Source: an uncultured Modestobacter sp. (GTDB lineage: Bacteria > Actinomycetota > Actinomycetes > Mycobacteriales > Geodermatophilaceae). From it: a stretch of DNA of 64,000 bases. The DNA is taken from assembly GCF_947486615.1 (NCBI RefSeq), contig NZ_CANKUD010000002.1:496001-560000 (forward strand), in the 5' to 3' direction. The notes below the pieces were generated by a model, which saw nothing but the letters and a program-made list of their open reading frames with translations, did no database searches and was not told the origin of the DNA. Both the position numbers and the translations under genes were made by a program. The stretch's first letter is position 1; the number at the start of each line of letters is the position of its first letter. Of the stretch, positions 24,352 to 38,442 are shown in pieces.

Positions 24352-25347
24352 TCAGGCGAGGACGGCGGAGGCGCGGACCGAGCCGACCACACCCTCACCA
24401 CCGGAGACCGGGGTGCTCACCCAGCGGGACAGCGCCTCGGCCGGCACGCCCAGCCGCAGCAGCCCGGCGGCCAGCGCCGGCGTGCGGCCCCGGTCGCCGC
24501 CGTCGTCCAGCTTCAGCGCCACCGCGCCCCGGCCGGGCAGCGCGGCGACGTGCACGCCGTCGGCGCCGCCCTTGACCAGCAGCCCGGGCACCGCCTGCAT
24601 CAGCTCGGTGTCCTCCCGGCCGGTGCCGGCGATCAGCCACGGGTGGGCGCGCATCGCGTCGGCGACCAGCCGCTCCGGGGTGCCCGGCTCGGCCTGCACC
24701 AGCGACAGCACCCCGCGGGCCAGCCCGGTGACCGAGATCGCGTGCTGCGGGGCTCCGCAGCCGTCGACGACGACCGCGGCCACCGGCTCACCGGAGGCCT
24801 CCCCCAGCCGCGCCTCGATCGCCCGCTGCAGCGGGTGCTCGCGCTCCAGGTAGCCCGCCGTCGGCCAGCCGGCGGCCACGCAGGCCGACAGCATCGCCGC
24901 GTGCTTGCCCGAGCAGTTCATCGCCAGCCGCTCCGGCGCCCGGCCGGCGACCAGCCACTGCGCCCGGGTCGCCTCGTGGCCCGGCAGCGCGGGCGGGCAG
25001 CCCAGGTCGTCGGCGGTCAGGCCCGCGGCGGCGAGCAGCTCGGCGGCCAGCTCGCGGTGCCCGTCCTCGCCACTGTGCGAGGCAGCGGCGATCGCCAGCT
25101 CGCGGTCGTCCCGGGGGCGCCACCCGGCCCGCAGGTACGCGGTCGCCTGCACCGGCTTGTTCGACGAGCGCGGCAGTACCGGCCGGGCGACGTCCCCGGC
25201 GGTCAGCAGCGGCTCGCCGTCAGCACCCAGGACGACGAGCGCCCCCCGGTGCACCGACTCCAGCACCTCGTCGTCGAACCCGGCCCGCCACACCTCGACC
25301 AGCACCGGGTCCTCGGGCCAGGTGGTCAGGTCGCCGGCCATCGGCAT
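24352..25347 (-). CDS. Asparaginase (Rhizobium etli type II-like family)
   Basis: 331 residues. Belongs to the thermolabile-type asparaginase family: SVHRGALVVLG, RSSNKPVQATAYL, ASHSGEDGHRE, MNCSGKHAAML, VVVDGCGAPQHAISV and KGGADGVHVAALP are all family motifs, including the conserved Ser/Lys and Cys residues. Hydrolyses L-asparagine to aspartate and ammonia in the cytoplasm. Last gene of the five-gene operon; its ATG shares one base with the rsiG-like stop (TGATG). Confidence 0.88.
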   Translation of the reverse strand: MPMAGDLTTWPEDPVLVEVWRAGFDDEVLESVHRGALVVLGADGEPLLTAGDVARPVLPRSSNKPVQATAYLRAGWRPRDDRELAIAAASHSGEDGHRELAAELLAAAGLTADDLGCPPALPGHEATRAQWLVAGRAPERLAMNCSGKHAAMLSACVAAGWPTAGYLEREHPLQRAIEARLGEASGEPVAAVVVDGCGAPQHAISVTGLARGVLSLVQAEPGTPERLVADAMRAHPWLIAGTGREDTELMQAVPGLLVKGGADGVHVAALPGRGAVALKLDDGGDRGRTPALAAGLLRLGVPAEALSRWVSTPVSGGEGVVGSVRASAVLA

Positions 25348-25916
25348 CAGGCGCCGTGCCGGGACTCGTCGGCCAGCAGCTGGGCCACGTCGGCCAGGCC
25401 GTCGCGGTAGCGCCGGGCCAGCTCGCCGGCGACGGCGTCCATCACCTGCTGCACGCCGCGGCGCCGCTCGGAGAGGTTCCGCTCCCCCTCACCCAGGGCG
25501 CGGGCGGCCTGCTCCAGCCGCTCGTCGGACAGCGACGGCACGTCGGAGAGGTCGACCCCGGGCGCCAGGCCGTTCACCCAGGTCTCGAACTGCTCCGGCG
25601 AGGTCGGCTGCACGGTCTGGTGCCGGCCGAGGCCGTGCGCCGGGCCGCGGCCCTTCTCCGAGAGGATCTCCGGCAGCAGGTCGACCAGCGACCGGCCGTC
25701 GTGCTCGGCCCGGCGCTGCAGCTCGCGGCGGACGATGTCCAGCCGGCCCTGCAGCAGCCGCCGGGTGTAGGAGAGGTTGACCTCCTCCTGCTCGGCGCGG
25801 TGGCGCAGCGCACGCACCTCGGTCATCGGCAGCTCCTCGACACCGTCCAGGAACGACGGGTCGAGCAGCTCGTCGACGCCGGCGCCGCCGGCGGGAGCGG
25901 GGGTGGGGGCAGTCAT
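25347..25916 (-). CDS. rsiG: RsiG-type c-di-GMP-binding anti-sigma factor
   Basis: 189 residues, helical. Carries both copies of the c-di-GMP motif E(X)3S(X)2R(X)3Q(X)3D defined for Streptomyces RsiG: E45-S49-R52-Q56-D60 and E145-S149-R152-Q156-D160, exactly 100 residues apart. In Streptomyces, RsiG with two c-di-GMP molecules holds the sigma factor WhiG inactive; in motile actinobacteria related pairs may govern flagella or pili. The link region (about 80-130) is flexible. It overlaps the BKACE gene by four bases and asparaginase by one. No sigma factor is in the window. The motif match is seen; the sigma partner is inferred. Confidence 0.85.
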   Translation of the reverse strand: MTAPTPAPAGGAGVDELLDPSFLDGVEELPMTEVRALRHRAEQEEVNLSYTRRLLQGRLDIVRRELQRRAEHDGRSLVDLLPEILSEKGRGPAHGLGRHQTVQPTSPEQFETWVNGLAPGVDLSDVPSLSDERLEQAARALGEGERNLSERRRGVQQVMDAVAGELARRYRDGLADVAQLLADESRHGA

Positions 25917-33619: not shown

Positions 33620-34192
33620 TCAGCGGATCCTCTCGAGGCGGGCGGACATGGTGGGGCGCAGCGGCTGGTCGCCGGCCGCGCGGTCGACGGCGTAGAGCAG
33701 CGCCCCGTCGACGATGCCGTAGAGCCGCTTGGCCCGGCTGGTGTCGGGGTGGTCGGGGGTGCGGGCCAGGACGTCGGTGTCCAGCTCCCAGCTGGTCGTC
33801 GTCCGGGCCGTGCCGACGTAGATCTCCACGAGGCCGGCCGGGGAGCTGACCAGCAGCTCGACCTCGTCGCCGTCCCGGGGCCGCAGGAAACCGGACTCGC
33901 GCTGGTCCGGGCCGGTGACCTGGCCGTCCTCGCCGATCCGCCAGGTGCGTGACTCGTAGGTCAGGAAGTCACGGCCGTCGTGGGCGAAGCGCACCCACTG
34001 GCCGAAGCGGTGGTCGCCCTCGGTGCCGGCCGCCTGCCCCTCGCCGTGCCACTCCCCGAGCAGCGGCAGCACCGACAGCAGCTCGTGGGCGACCTCGGGG
34101 CCCTCCCGGACGTCGACGGTGTCGATCACCGGCAGCTCGGTGGGGCCCTGGACCGGGCCGGTGGGCAGCCCGGGCGGGACGGGGGCGCTCAT
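33620..34192 (-). CDS. Nitrobindin-family heme protein (FABP-like, Rv0813c-like)
   Basis: 190 residues, ten-stranded beta-barrel family. The GxWxGxG motif is GEWHGEG (about 45-51), followed by FLTYESRTW and ESGFLRP, and C-terminal LYGIVDGALLYAVDRAA. Nitrobindins bind ferric heme b and react with NO or peroxynitrite; the proximal His is expected in the C-terminal strand region, but I see no clear His there (the tail reads PLRPTMSARLERIR), so heme binding here is uncertain. Overlaps the 38-residue membrane protein by four bases. Confidence 0.85.
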   Translation of the reverse strand: MSAPVPPGLPTGPVQGPTELPVIDTVDVREGPEVAHELLSVLPLLGEWHGEGQAAGTEGDHRFGQWVRFAHDGRDFLTYESRTWRIGEDGQVTGPDQRESGFLRPRDGDEVELLVSSPAGLVEIYVGTARTTTSWELDTDVLARTPDHPDTSRAKRLYGIVDGALLYAVDRAAGDQPLRPTMSARLERIR

Positions 34193-34305
34193 CGCGTCCG
34201 CTCCGGCCGCTGCTCGGTGCGCGTCGCCCGCCACGCGGAGGCGGCGAACCCCAGCGCGGCGAGCCCGGTGAGGGTGATGAGCACCCAGGCGGAGACCAGA
34301 CCCAT
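34189..34305 (-). CDS. Small membrane protein, 38 aa
   Basis: MGLVSAWVLITLTGLAALGF then a short basic tail ending RPERTR: a single hydrophobic helix (about 3-26). Stop overlaps the nitrobindin start by four bases (ATGA), which supports real translation. Too short for a family assignment; possibly a membrane anchor or regulator for nitrobindin/DUF885. Confidence 0.65.
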   Translation of the reverse strand: MGLVSAWVLITLTGLAALGFAASAWRATRTEQRPERTR

Positions 34306-34473
34306 GGCCGTCACGGTAATCCGGGCCCCCGGCACCCATCGGGAGCGGGGCGGTCTCACCCGGCCGAGGGGGAGCACCGCCGCCTCCGCTCAACGGCCCC
34401 CGCCACCCGGTCGAAGGAGGGAGGACACGACGGATCCCGAACCCGCGGATCCGAGACGGGGTGGAGAGATCGC

Positions 34474-35322
34474 ATGTCGGTGGAGTCGGCCACGGAGCCG
34501 GTGGAGGTCCTGCCCGGACCCGTGGCGCAGCGGCTGCACGTGACCAGCACGGGCGACCCGGACCGGCCGGTGCTGCTGCTGGCGCACGGCTTCGGCTGCG
34601 ACCAGGGCATGTGGGACGGCGTCCTGCCCGACTTCGGCGCCGACCACCGCGTCGTCCGCTACGACCTGATGGGTTACGGCCGGTCCGACGTCGCGGCCTA
34701 CGACCCGGAGCACTACTCGACCCTGGACGCGCACGCCGCGGACATCCTGGCGATCTGCGCGGAGCTCGACCTGCACGACGTCACCCTCGTCGCGCACAGC
34801 GTGAGCACGATGATGGCGCTGCTGGCCGCGGTGCGGGAACCCGGGCGGTTCCGGCAGGTCGTGCTGGTCGCGGCGTCCCCGTACTTCCTGGAGGACCCGG
34901 CCACCGGCTACGACGGCGGCTTCTCCGCCGCCGACATGGCCGAGGTCGCCGGCGCGCTGGACAGCAACTACTTCACCTGGGCCGAGGCGATGGCCCCGGT
35001 GATCATGGGGACGCCGGACGCGCCCGAGCACGGGGAGCGCCTCACCGCGAGCTTCTGCCGGGTCGACCCCGACGTCGCCCGCCAGCTGCTGGTCGTCATG
35101 TTCACCACCGACTTCCGCCCGCTGCTGCCCCGGGTCACCACCCCCACCGTGGTCGTGCAGAGCCGGGCCGACGCCCTGGTGCCACCGTCGGTCGGCGAGC
35201 ACCTGCACGCCCACCTGGCCGGCTCGACGCTGGTCCAGCTCGAGGCCGTCGGGCACTGCCCGCACATCAGCGCACCGGAGGAGACGGCCGCGGCCATCCG
35301 CGCCCACCTCCTGCCGCGGTGA
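34474..35322 (+). CDS. rsbQ: RsbQ-type alpha/beta hydrolase
   Basis: 282 residues. HGFGCDQGMWDGVLPDF is the RsbQ hallmark, nucleophile Ser109 in AHSVS, acid Asp233, base His261 in VGHCPH. B. subtilis RsbQ is an energy-stress factor that makes or hands a small hydrophobic ligand to the PAS domain of phosphatase RsbP. Here the gene 11 bp downstream encodes PAS-GGDEF-EAL, so the same sensory chemistry may gate c-di-GMP metabolism. ATG 34474 has GGAGAG seven bases upstream. Confidence 0.9.
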   Translation: MSVESATEPVEVLPGPVAQRLHVTSTGDPDRPVLLLAHGFGCDQGMWDGVLPDFGADHRVVRYDLMGYGRSDVAAYDPEHYSTLDAHAADILAICAELDLHDVTLVAHSVSTMMALLAAVREPGRFRQVVLVAASPYFLEDPATGYDGGFSAADMAEVAGALDSNYFTWAEAMAPVIMGTPDAPEHGERLTASFCRVDPDVARQLLVVMFTTDFRPLLPRVTTPTVVVQSRADALVPPSVGEHLHAHLAGSTLVQLEAVGHCPHISAPEETAAAIRAHLLPR

Positions 35323-35332
35323 CGAGGCACCG

Positions 35333-37072
35333 GTGACGCAACGGGACTACGCCGAGCTCTGGCAGCGCGCCCCGGGCGGGCACCTGCTGCTGGACGACGA
35401 CGGCCTGATCACCGCGGTCAACGCCACCTTCACCGGCTGGACCGGGTACACCGCCGAGGAACTGCTGGGCACCCCGTTCCCGAAGCTGTTGCCGATCGGC
35501 GACCGGGTGCTGTACACCACGCACTCCCTCCCCCAGCTGATGGTCAGCGGCCGGATCGCCGAGGCCTCGGTGCAGGTCGTCGGGCGTGACGGGTCGCGCC
35601 ACCCGGCACTGCTGAGCGCCACCCGGGTCTCCGGCCCGGACGGCCCGGAGACCCAGCTCGTGCTGGTCGACGCCCAGCAGCGCCGCCGCTACGAGGAGGA
35701 GCTGCTGGCCGCGCGGCGGCGGGCCGAGGAGTCCGAGGCGCGGATCACCCGGGCCGAGGCCGAGCTCGCCGAGCTCGTGCACCACGACTCGCTGACCGGG
35801 TTGCTCAACCGGCCCGGCCTGCTGCGGGCGCTGCACGACCGGCTCGGGGCCGCGCGCGCCGACCGGGGTGACGGTGCGGTGCCGACCGTGCTGTTCATCG
35901 ACCTCGACGGCTTCAAGACCGTCAACGACGACCTCGGGCACGCCAGCGGGGACGAGCTGCTGCAGGTCGTCGCGCGCCGGATCCGCTCGGCCTCCCGCGC
36001 CGGCGCCGACGTGGCCCGGTTCGCCGGCGACGAGTTCGTCGTCCTGGACGACGTCACCCCCTCCGGCGCCGCGCGGGTCGCCGACCGGCTGCTGGACCTG
36101 CTCGCCGAGCCGGTCGTGCTGCAGGGCGTGGAGGTCGTGGTCACCGCGAGCGTCGGGATCTGCTCCGCCGAGGTCCCGGCGTCCGGGCCGGATGCGGCCG
36201 AGCTCGTGCTCCGCCGCGCCGACAACGCCATGTACCGGGCCAAGGCGCAGGGCAGCGGCCGCTGGACCGCCCACCGCCCCGGGGACAGCGACCCGGGCGC
36301 CGACCGGCTCGTGCTGCTCGAGCAGCTGCGCAGCGGCATCCGCCAGGGCCAGCTGCGCGTCTTCTACCAACCCCGCCTGCACCTGCCGACCGGCCGGCTG
36401 AGCGGGGTCGAGGCGCTGGTCCGCTGGGAGCACCCGACCCGCGGGCTGCTCCAGCCCGGCGCCTTCATCGACGCCGCGGAGCAGTCCGGCATCATCCGCG
36501 AGCTCGGCGCCTGGGTGCTCGCCGAGGCCGTCGAGCAGGCCGTTCGCTGGGACGCCACCGGCGGGCCGGCGGGCCTGCAGGTCGCCGTCAACCTCTCCGC
36601 CCGTCAGCTGGCCGACACCGACCTGGTGCCGCTGGTCGCCCGCACCCTGGCCCGCGCCGGCCTGCCCGCCGCGCGGCTGGTCCTGGAGATCACCGAGACC
36701 GCGCTGATGAGCGACCCGGACGCCGCCCTGCGGTCGCTGCAGGCGCTCAAGGAACTGGGCGTGCTGCTGGCCGTCGACGACTTCGGCACCGGCTTCTCCA
36801 GCTTCACCTACCTCAAGCGGTTCCCGGTCGACGAGCTGAAGATCGACCGCTCGTTCGTCACCGGGATGACCACCGACCCCGGCGACCACGCGATCGTCGC
36901 CAGCTGCGTGCACCTGGCCCACGCGATGGGCCTGGTCGCCGTGGCCGAGGGCGTGGAGAGCGCCGCCGAGTGCGACGCCCTGCGCGCGCTGGGTGCCGAC
37001 CAGGCGCAGGGCTACTTCTTCAGCCGGCCCGTACCGGCCGACGACATGCCCCTCCCGATCGTCGTCGCCTGA
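35333..37072 (+). CDS. PAS-GGDEF-EAL cyclic-di-GMP turnover protein
   Basis: 579 residues, cytoplasmic. PAS at about 5-113 (LLLDDDGLITAVNATFTGWT, RDGSRHPALLSA), coiled linker 114-148 (ARRRAEESEARITRAEAELA), GGDEF at about 150-310 with active-site AGDEF at 231-235, and EAL at about 325-575 with EAL at 360-362, NLSARQL, EITETAL, DDFGTGFSS, LKIDRSF and VAEGVES, so the phosphodiesterase site looks complete. The A-site has Ala in place of the first Gly, which some active cyclases tolerate; the RxxD inhibitory site is absent (AGAD). GTG start, 11 bp after the rsbQ stop. Confidence 0.93.
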   Translation: MTQRDYAELWQRAPGGHLLLDDDGLITAVNATFTGWTGYTAEELLGTPFPKLLPIGDRVLYTTHSLPQLMVSGRIAEASVQVVGRDGSRHPALLSATRVSGPDGPETQLVLVDAQQRRRYEEELLAARRRAEESEARITRAEAELAELVHHDSLTGLLNRPGLLRALHDRLGAARADRGDGAVPTVLFIDLDGFKTVNDDLGHASGDELLQVVARRIRSASRAGADVARFAGDEFVVLDDVTPSGAARVADRLLDLLAEPVVLQGVEVVVTASVGICSAEVPASGPDAAELVLRRADNAMYRAKAQGSGRWTAHRPGDSDPGADRLVLLEQLRSGIRQGQLRVFYQPRLHLPTGRLSGVEALVRWEHPTRGLLQPGAFIDAAEQSGIIRELGAWVLAEAVEQAVRWDATGGPAGLQVAVNLSARQLADTDLVPLVARTLARAGLPAARLVLEITETALMSDPDAALRSLQALKELGVLLAVDDFGTGFSSFTYLKRFPVDELKIDRSFVTGMTTDPGDHAIVASCVHLAHAMGLVAVAEGVESAAECDALRALGADQAQGYFFSRPVPADDMPLPIVVA

Positions 37073-37208
37073 GCCGTCGCCTGCACCACCTCCGCCCAGG
37101 GGGTGGCCTGCAGGCCCAGGACGGCGGTGGTCTCACTGCTGTCCAGCACGAAGTCGGCGTCCCACTGGTGCCGGATGGCCGCCACCTCGCGCGGCTCCAG
37201 GCCGCCCG
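37073..37208 (-). pseudogene. Remnant of an NAD-dependent epimerase/reductase C-terminus
   Basis: On the minus strand, codons at 37208-37073 read GGLEPREVAAIRHQWDADFV then LDSSETTAVLGLQATPWAEV and a short helix, the characteristic last about 45 residues of extended SDR epimerase-like proteins (a xxFVLDSSKTTAxLGLxPTPWxExLxAT pattern). No start or Rossmann domain exists upstream: 37209-37312 belongs to other sequence and the DUF1416 gene follows. It is probably a deletion relic. The frame then runs into the antisense of the EAL gene and stops at 37012. Confidence 0.6.
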
Positions 37209-37312
37209 GGACGGCTCGAGCCGGACGACGTGGGCAGACGCGACAGCGCCCGCCCCGGCCGGAGCCGGTGCGGGCGCTGTGCGGTCGCTCCGTGGAGCGG
37301 CGAGGTGGTGCG

Positions 37313-37606
37313 TCAGTCGATCGCGAGCGTCGTCTCGTTCAGGCCGACCTCGGCGTCGACGGCGCGCTCGGCGCGGCCGACCGGCGACAGCGACCGCAGG
37401 GTCCACTGCCCCGGGGCGGCGAAGAACCGGAACTCGCCCTCCGGGCTGGTCACCACCTCGGCGGTGAACTCACCCGTGGCGTCCAGCAGCCGCACGTAGG
37501 CGCCGGCCACCGGCGACCCGTCGTGCCAGACCGACCCCTGGATCACCGTCTGGGTGCTCAGGTCGACCCCGGCGAGACCGCCACCCTGCTTCGGGGCCCC
37601 GCACAC
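37313..37606 (-). CDS. DUF1416 protein (SseC-like)
   Basis: 97 residues. CGAPKQGGGLAGVDL at the N-terminus, then IQGSVWHDGSPVAGAYVRLL, a transthyretin/carboxypeptidase-regulatory-like beta sandwich, ending FRFFAAPGQWTLR. The conserved N-terminal Cys is present. In mycobacteria SseC2 (Rv0814c) is next to the sulfurtransferase CysA2, as here, and the pair has been linked with sulfur trafficking, including molybdopterin-type pathways. GTG start two bases after the sulfurtransferase stop. Confidence 0.9.
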   Translation of the reverse strand: MCGAPKQGGGLAGVDLSTQTVIQGSVWHDGSPVAGAYVRLLDATGEFTAEVVTSPEGEFRFFAAPGQWTLRSLSPVGRAERAVDAEVGLNETTLAID

Positions 37607-37608
37607 GG

Positions 37609-38442
37609 TCAGGCGCCCTTCTGGATCGGGACGCCGACCAGGGAGCCGTACTCGGTCCAGGAGCCGTCGTAGTTCTTGACGTTGGCGTGCCCCAGCAGCT
37701 CGCGCAGCACGAACCAGGTGTGGCTGGAGCGCTCACCGATCCGGCAGTAGGCGATGGTGTCCTTGCCGGTGTCCAGGCCTGCGTCGGCGTAGAGCTTGGC
37801 GAGCTCCTCGTCGCTCTTGAAGGTGCCGTCCTCGTTGGCCGCCTTGCTCCACGGCACGTTGACCGCCGAGGGGATGTGGCCGGCGCGCTGCGCACCCTCC
37901 TGCGGGAGGTGGGCCGGGGCGGTCAGCTTGCCGGCGAACTCGTCGGGCGAGCGGACGTCGACCAGGTTCTGCTGGCCGATCGCCGAGACGACCTCGTCGC
38001 GGAAGGCGCGGATGGAGGTGTCGGGCTCGGCGGCGGAGTACTGCGTCGCCGGGCGCTGCACGGCGTCGGCGGAGAGCGGGCGGCTGTCCAGCTCCCACTT
38101 CTTGCGGCCGCCGTCGATCAGCTTGACGTCGCGGTGGCCGTAGACCTTGAAGTACCAGTAGGCGTAGGCGGCGAACCAGTTGTTGTTGCCGCCGTAGAGC
38201 ACCACGGTGTCGTCGTTGCTGATGCCCTTGGCCGACAGCAGGGCGCTGAAGCCCTCGCGGTCGACGAAGTCGCGGGACTCGGCGTCCTGCAGGTCGGTCT
38301 TCCAGTCCAGCTTGACGGCACCCGCGAGGTGCCCCTTGTCGTAGGCGCTGGTGTCCTCGTCGACCTCGACGAAGACGATGCCCGGGTTGCCCAGGTGCTC
38401 CTGGGCCCAGTCGGCGGTGACGAGCACGTCAGAACGGCTCAT
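37609..38442 (-). CDS. Thiosulfate sulfurtransferase (rhodanese, CysA2/SseA-like)
   Basis: 277 residues, two tandem rhodanese domains; the catalytic Cys is in the second, IAYCRIGERSSHTWFVL, with the CRxGxR loop of thiosulfate sulfurtransferases. The first domain is inactive (YGGNNNWFAAYAYW). Transfers sulfane sulfur from thiosulfate to an acceptor, probably the neighbouring small protein or thioredoxin. ATG 38442, with GGAGGAACCACC just before it. It lies downstream of a Cys-rich leader peptide that may regulate it by attenuation. Confidence 0.93.
   Translation of the reverse strand: MSRSDVLVTADWAQEHLGNPGIVFVEVDEDTSAYDKGHLAGAVKLDWKTDLQDAESRDFVDREGFSALLSAKGISNDDTVVLYGGNNNWFAAYAYWYFKVYGHRDVKLIDGGRKKWELDSRPLSADAVQRPATQYSAAEPDTSIRAFRDEVVSAIGQQNLVDVRSPDEFAGKLTAPAHLPQEGAQRAGHIPSAVNVPWSKAANEDGTFKSDEELAKLYADAGLDTGKDTIAYCRIGERSSHTWFVLRELLGHANVKNYDGSWTEYGSLVGVPIQKGA

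Follow-up and report, generated by a model that had tools for sequence, protein, structure and literature searches.

The gene pair and its closest described relatives

Bipartite sensors that pair the hydrolase RsbQ with a PAS-domain protein were surveyed by Nadezhdin, Brody and Price in 2011, who collected 45 such modules. The output was a PP2C phosphatase, a histidine kinase or a diguanylate cyclase, and three of the cyclases had a C-terminal EAL domain; according to that paper, the regulatory target of the module is known only in Bacillus subtilis (PMC3183031). In this study, such a pair was analyzed in a 64,000-nucleotide stretch (the window; NZ_CANKUD010000002.1, positions 496,001 to 560,000) of an uncultured Modestobacter sp. 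of the Geodermatophilaceae, where an rsbQ gene precedes a gene for a PAS-GGDEF-EAL enzyme. The pair is probably a version of the known RsbQ-PAS sensor that acts on cyclic dimeric guanosine monophosphate (c-di-GMP). Similar to the cyclase modules of the survey, rsbQ lies immediately upstream, the RsbP-type PAS domain is N-terminal without a DIT ending, and the output is GGDEF(-EAL); unlike them, the positions of F55 and C10 hold L and G, and a 28-member actinobacterial GGDEF-EAL group is defined here (PMC3183031). The RsbQ-PAS-GGDEF(-EAL) module is already published in the 2011 paper (PMC3183031), so that the candidate new pathway proposed in an earlier note on this DNA is not new as a module, and the relay that belonged to it is unsupported (see below). 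New here are a PP2C-type RsbQ module in the same genome and a class difference in the RsbQ-binding PAS helix. In the partly available literature on RsbQ with GGDEF domains or c-di-GMP, no experiment on an RsbQ-GGDEF pair was met.

The rsbQ gene (34474-35322, plus strand, ATG start) encodes an alpha/beta hydrolase of 282 amino acids, whose top match in the PDB was B. subtilis RsbQ (1wom; 2e-67, 231 bits), followed by Oleispira 3qvm (188 bits) and plant D14 (187 bits); Pfam assigned Abhydrolase_1 and Abhydrolase_6. Its triad S109-D233-H261 did not vary across 11 aligned sequences, the window's included. The second gene (35333-37072, plus strand, GTG start) encodes 579 amino acids with Pfam PAS, GGDEF and EAL domains, and the spacing between the two is 10 bp (35323-35332). 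The earlier note was therefore right about the intact RsbQ triad and about the PAS-GGDEF-EAL gene just downstream, while its spacing of 11 bp was one too many. Both open reading frames outscored the overlapping frames in a simple codon-composition scoring. Since the neighbors on both sides lie on the minus strand, the pair looks like a two-gene unit. A promoter, a terminator and a sigma-B-like pattern were sought upstream of 34474 and none was found, a weak negative at 75% GC.

The locus resembles the RsbQ-RsbP pair of the B. subtilis sigma-B energy branch in RsbQ family, triad and gene order, and differs from it in that the output is GGDEF-EAL and not PP2C, the PP2C version being a separate locus here. 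The plant strigolactone and karrikin receptors D14/KAI2 belong to the same hydrolase family as RsbQ (135-187 bits); they signal via F-box proteins, unlike RsbQ, which signals via PAS. Melville et al. in 2024 reportedly described butenolide perception by B. subtilis RsbQ.

Distribution and descent of the RsbQ-PAS pairing

Within the family set of 112 genomes, RsbQ-like matches (E <= 1e-40) were found at 103 places in 93 genomes. In many genomes of this set, as of the phylum draw and the Myxococcota search below, the scoring reached only some of the initial candidates, so that absences are not absolute. An RsbP-type PAS domain followed RsbQ at 102 of the 103 places, and the remaining one lies 7 bp from a contig end. 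The outputs were PP2C at 80 places, GGDEF-EAL at 11 (in 10 genomes) and GGDEF without EAL at one (G053), while eight more PAS-GAF proteins were read incompletely and two were cut after the PAS domain. In the single GGDEF case, L132, the partner is PAS-GAF-GGDEF, compared with PAS-GAF-PP2C in its relatives, so the output may have been exchanged.

Beyond the family, 396 genomes drawn evenly from the phylum were searched (E <= 1e-55), and 23 of them, counting that of the window, had an RsbQ match. Outside the family there were 24 places: 21 with a PP2C, one with a GGDEF and one with a histidine kinase partner (L179, assigned by eye), and one without a PAS gene. A wider scan of a one-genome-per-species collection, with an alignment of the RsbQs that have GGDEF-EAL partners (class A) as query, was read for the best 80 of 139 loci. 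It yielded 24 GGDEF-EAL partners in one frame (five from genomes already in the family set), three GGDEF, 18 histidine kinase and 14 PP2C partners, four PAS proteins with none of these outputs, and 17 loci without PAS downstream. Among the three GGDEF loci, L205 has the EAL domain in a separate frame; among the four loci with none of the outputs, L203 has GGDEF and EAL in other frames, L260 and L265 have a Ser/Thr kinase (see below) and L255 stops at a contig edge. The RsbQ and PAS genes share a reading frame at six loci.

These results confirmed the conservation of RsbQ and PAS-GGDEF-EAL as neighbors, which the earlier note had set as a test, as GGDEF-EAL pairs occur in several actinobacterial families. 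Because the pairing is present and conserved across these families, RsbQ plausibly feeds into c-di-GMP; this part of the proposal that RsbQ tunes c-di-GMP in place of sigma-B stands, while the replacement of sigma-B does not.

The relation of RsbQ to its partners was then read from two quick trees. In that of 66 proteins, the 11 RsbQs with GGDEF-EAL partners formed one clade (Shimodaira-Hasegawa-like approximate likelihood ratio test, SH-aLRT, 95). In that of 117, where, as in the distance analysis and residue counts below, loci read no further than PAS-GAF count among the PP2C partners, the family's GGDEF-EAL partners joined the Micrococcaceae ones in a 55-row clade (SH-aLRT 98) that covers Geodermatophilaceae, Kineosporiaceae and Micrococcaceae. 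Two further groups are nested inside it, one with histidine-kinase partners and one lacking PAS neighbors. GGDEF-EAL partners also occur beyond this clade, in Solirubrobacter, an alphaproteobacterium and Schlegelella, so that the 117-protein tree implies more than one origin or move of this output. RsbQ and PAS distances correlated even where the outputs of two loci differed, with r 0.50 (7,939 locus pairs from 178 RsbQ/PAS pairs), compared with a mean of 0.06 and a maximum of 0.29 in 300 shuffles within output classes. Since the distances correlate across outputs, hydrolase and PAS domain appear to travel as a unit while outputs change.

Several further arrangements were recorded in these samples. 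Eleven Arthrobacter RsbQ genes are paired with PAS-histidine kinases (L207, L230-L233, L240, L241, L244, L247, L249, L253), whereas in the 2011 survey kinase outputs occur only in Gram-negative bacteria (PMC3183031). In two metagenome-derived Myxococcales genomes, the gene after rsbQ encodes PAS joined to a Ser/Thr protein kinase (L260:4358-6265, Pfam Pkinase 7e-43; L265, by likeness, with a frame that ends early), an output outside the three given in that survey (PMC3183031). A search of 282 Myxococcota genomes for further cases of this kinase output gave matches in only two, one being the query's own and the other, judged by eye, of the histidine-kinase type. An RsbQ-like hydrolase with a PAS-GGDEF-EAL protein is also encoded on a plasmid typed as mobilizable (AP018698.1, plasmid1 of Arthrobacter sp. 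MN05-02; L271), so the module can be plasmid-borne. A Rufibacter RsbQ (L262) lacks a downstream PAS gene and has there, instead, a gene for a 145-amino-acid protein (L262:4343-4777) without Pfam match at 0.001. The record of L203 is titled Vibrio cholerae strain 35D and may be misnamed, as its RsbQ groups inside Arthrobacter.

Output direction and the PAS helix

The 35333-37072 protein comprises the RsbP-type PAS domain (residues 5-111; 35345-35665, plus strand), a GGDEF domain (residues 150-309; 35780-36259, plus strand) and an EAL phosphodiesterase domain (residues 330-566; 36320-37030, plus strand). The PAS domain is the most N-terminal one and, as in RsbP-PAS, lacks a DIT ending; it ends with VDAQQRRRYEEEL. 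The protein aligns with MorA (4rnh), and the catalytic motifs of both domains are present (AGDEF and DLDGFK; EALVRW and DDFGTG), while no RxxD is found at the usual I-site spacing. Among the GGDEF-EAL partner proteins, the window's included, 28 of 30 contain EALVRW and all 30 contain DDFG; within the actinobacterial clade, [AS]GDEF was present in 26 of 26 and RxxD at the I-site spacing in 0 of 26. AGDEF and SGDEF forms can be active. Retained EAL motifs together with AGDEF and a missing I-site make c-di-GMP breakdown the most likely main output, with the GGDEF domain probably in a tuning role and perhaps with some cyclase activity. The reverse, a dominant GGDEF domain by which the module would raise c-di-GMP once RsbQ is engaged, is rather unlikely. 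It would fit the retained AGDEF and DLDGFK metal motif and the lack of product inhibition at an I-site, but the first position of the GGDEF motif is only A or S throughout the 26 clade members, while the EAL motifs are kept.

In B. subtilis RsbP, alanine at F55 or Y59 of the Falpha helix gave a null phenotype with disrupted RsbQ interaction, according to the 2011 paper (PMC3183031). PAS residues were mapped onto RsbP by motif and spacing, without an aligned B. subtilis RsbP sequence, which placed the equivalent helix at about residues 58-67. The nine class residues correspond to C10->G15, L13->L18, L48->L53 (by counting only), Q53->R58, F55->L60, C56->Y61, Y59->H64, E72->E77 and P86->P91. L13, L48, E72 and P86 are thus identical here, and R58, Y61 and H64 fit the class consensus as read from the figure legend. 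At the F55 position, PP2C partners have F or Y in 116 of 120 (nine of the 120 assigned by likeness), and GGDEF-EAL partners have L in 29 of 32, including 28 of 28 in the actinobacterial clade. Overall, 26 PAS columns split this clade from the PP2C partners, eight of them within 19 columns around the helix, although these are related sequences, columns and stretch were picked post hoc, and the F55 position also varies among the histidine-kinase partners. The class-separating residue falls where F55A abolishes RsbQ binding in B. subtilis (PMC3183031). The difference between F/Y and L is a lead: it fits insulation of the two RsbQ modules and could also reflect a changed ligand.

For the window's pair, a sensor mechanism of the following kind is proposed. 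RsbQ would bind, and probably cleave, a small molecule, and would dock on the Falpha helix of its partner's N-terminal PAS domain; the change may then run along the helix after PAS and set GGDEF-EAL activity, the output being mainly c-di-GMP breakdown tuned by the GGDEF domain. The module is accessory, occupying a variable spot beside constant genes that include RsiG, and runs parallel to the RsbQ-PP2C module. Family membership, conserved pairing, catalytic motifs, the clade and the occurrence of the module without RsiG in other families were observed here, whereas docking, ligand, transmission along the helix and output direction are inferred.

Several observations weigh against it. The F55 position holds L and the C10 position G, while F55A breaks RsbQ binding in B. 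subtilis, and 10 of 19 histidine-kinase partners have V at the F55 position; as these kinases are paired with RsbQ nonetheless, not every pair requires an aromatic residue, and the mode of docking could deviate from that of the prototype. RsbQ genes without a PAS partner also exist: no PAS gene lies downstream of L176 (G162), an RsbQ-like gene from a different actinobacterial family, or of any of the 16 Micrococcaceae RsbQ genes that form a nested clade (L204, L206, L209, L212-L215, L217-L219, L222-L224, L227-L229). In addition, the co-variation of RsbQ and PAS may come from shared descent. The same orphan genes, and the retained triad, would suit a metabolic or detoxifying RsbQ whose product is read by the neighboring protein as a free ligand, without protein contact. 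Four genomes (P2b, Alg241-R88, Leaf137 and 9AX) even carry an orphan RsbQ besides a PAS-GGDEF-EAL module, and there the orphans might serve the module. This alternative is nevertheless improbable, given that RsbQ and PAS distances co-vary across outputs, that the class-specific PAS changes include the RsbQ-binding helix, and that direct RsbQ-PAS contact was demonstrated in B. subtilis (PMC3183031).

RsiG and the second RsbQ module

An anti-sigma factor gene, rsiG, lies 8.6 kb from the module on the opposite strand (25347-25916, minus strand); its product of 189 amino acids has both E(X)3S(X)2R(X)3Q(X)3D motifs and a Pfam RsiG match of 9e-28. A WhiG-type sigma gene above the family cut-off is found elsewhere in the genome (G000:C11:40764-41435). 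In Streptomyces, the GGDEF-EAL phosphodiesterase RmdB antagonizes RsiG, so that such an enzyme can act on WhiG; the genome here likewise has a GGDEF-EAL enzyme with RsiG and WhiG, but adds the RsbQ pair, which is not part of the Streptomyces account in its available text (PMC13232838). The earlier note had proposed a relay from RsbQ through c-di-GMP to RsiG and a sigma factor; in the form considered here, the module's output would specifically arm or disarm the neighboring RsiG and thus the WhiG-type sigma factor. In its favor are the co-presence of twin-motif RsiG and WhiG-type sigma genes, the RmdB precedent (PMC13232838), and a distance of 7.6-8.6 kb between module and RsiG in those eight genomes of the genus that carry the module at this site.

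The comparison of genomes argues otherwise. In these eight genomes, the window's included, the module is inserted between flanks that stay constant, namely a THAP4-type heme-binding beta-barrel gene (33620-34192, minus strand) on the left and DUF1416 (37313-37606, minus strand) and rhodanese (37609-38427, minus strand) genes on the right, whereas eight others of the genus (G086, G087, G089, G092, G093, G102, G103, G104) share these flanks and RsiG but lack the module. The stretch from the heme-binding gene to DUF1416 (34193-37312) is variable: it shrinks to 0.3-0.6 kb in G089 and G104, while in other genomes inspection by eye suggests epimerase-, TetR-, protease- or EAL-like genes. RsiG was found in 99 of the 112 family genomes (E <= 1e-20), compared with the GGDEF-EAL module in 10, and 89 have RsiG without the module; RsiG was reported in 16 of 16 Geodermatophilaceae species in an earlier study (PMC8325347). 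In G066, module and RsiG are on different contigs, more than 100 kb of its own contig lying on each side of the module, and the second module copy of G088 is 1.3 Mb from RsiG; G016, whose module contig is 11 kb, is uninformative. In a search of 22 genomes, RsiG was matched in Pseudokineococcus, Solirubrobacter and Motilibacter but in none of the 15 Micrococcaceae with a GGDEF-EAL module, although these absences are not absolute, as genome completeness is not stated and one genome is a metagenome bin. Moreover, 33 GGDEF and 25 EAL matches in the genome, the 35333-37072 protein included, use the same messenger. RsiG is a constant flank of the module site, and gene occurrence does not support its membership of the module. 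The relay was set aside after synteny, co-occurrence and gene counts, and is very unlikely.

The same genome has a second RsbQ locus, in which RsbQ is followed by a PAS-GAF-PP2C protein (L039, G000:C13:12408-13190). A second, PP2C-type RsbQ match was present in all eight module-bearing genus genomes and in G016; none was found beside the GGDEF-EAL module of G066. A c-di-GMP module acting instead of the sigma-B input, as the earlier note had it, was rejected on this ground, since the PP2C version is co-present here and in all eight of these genomes. The residue difference of F/Y vs. L suggests that the two RsbQ modules are parallel, perhaps insulated, sensors. We tentatively propose, as a possibility more doubtful than not, that some Modestobacter have insulated twin hydrolase-PAS sensors, one feeding PP2C and a stress sigma factor and the other c-di-GMP, with the Falpha F/Y-vs-L difference as the insulation and one ligand class, perhaps butenolides, for both. 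The locus provides a test case in which one genome combines two RsbQ modules that differ in output, and if the insulation is true, one ligand class would feed two regulatory networks.
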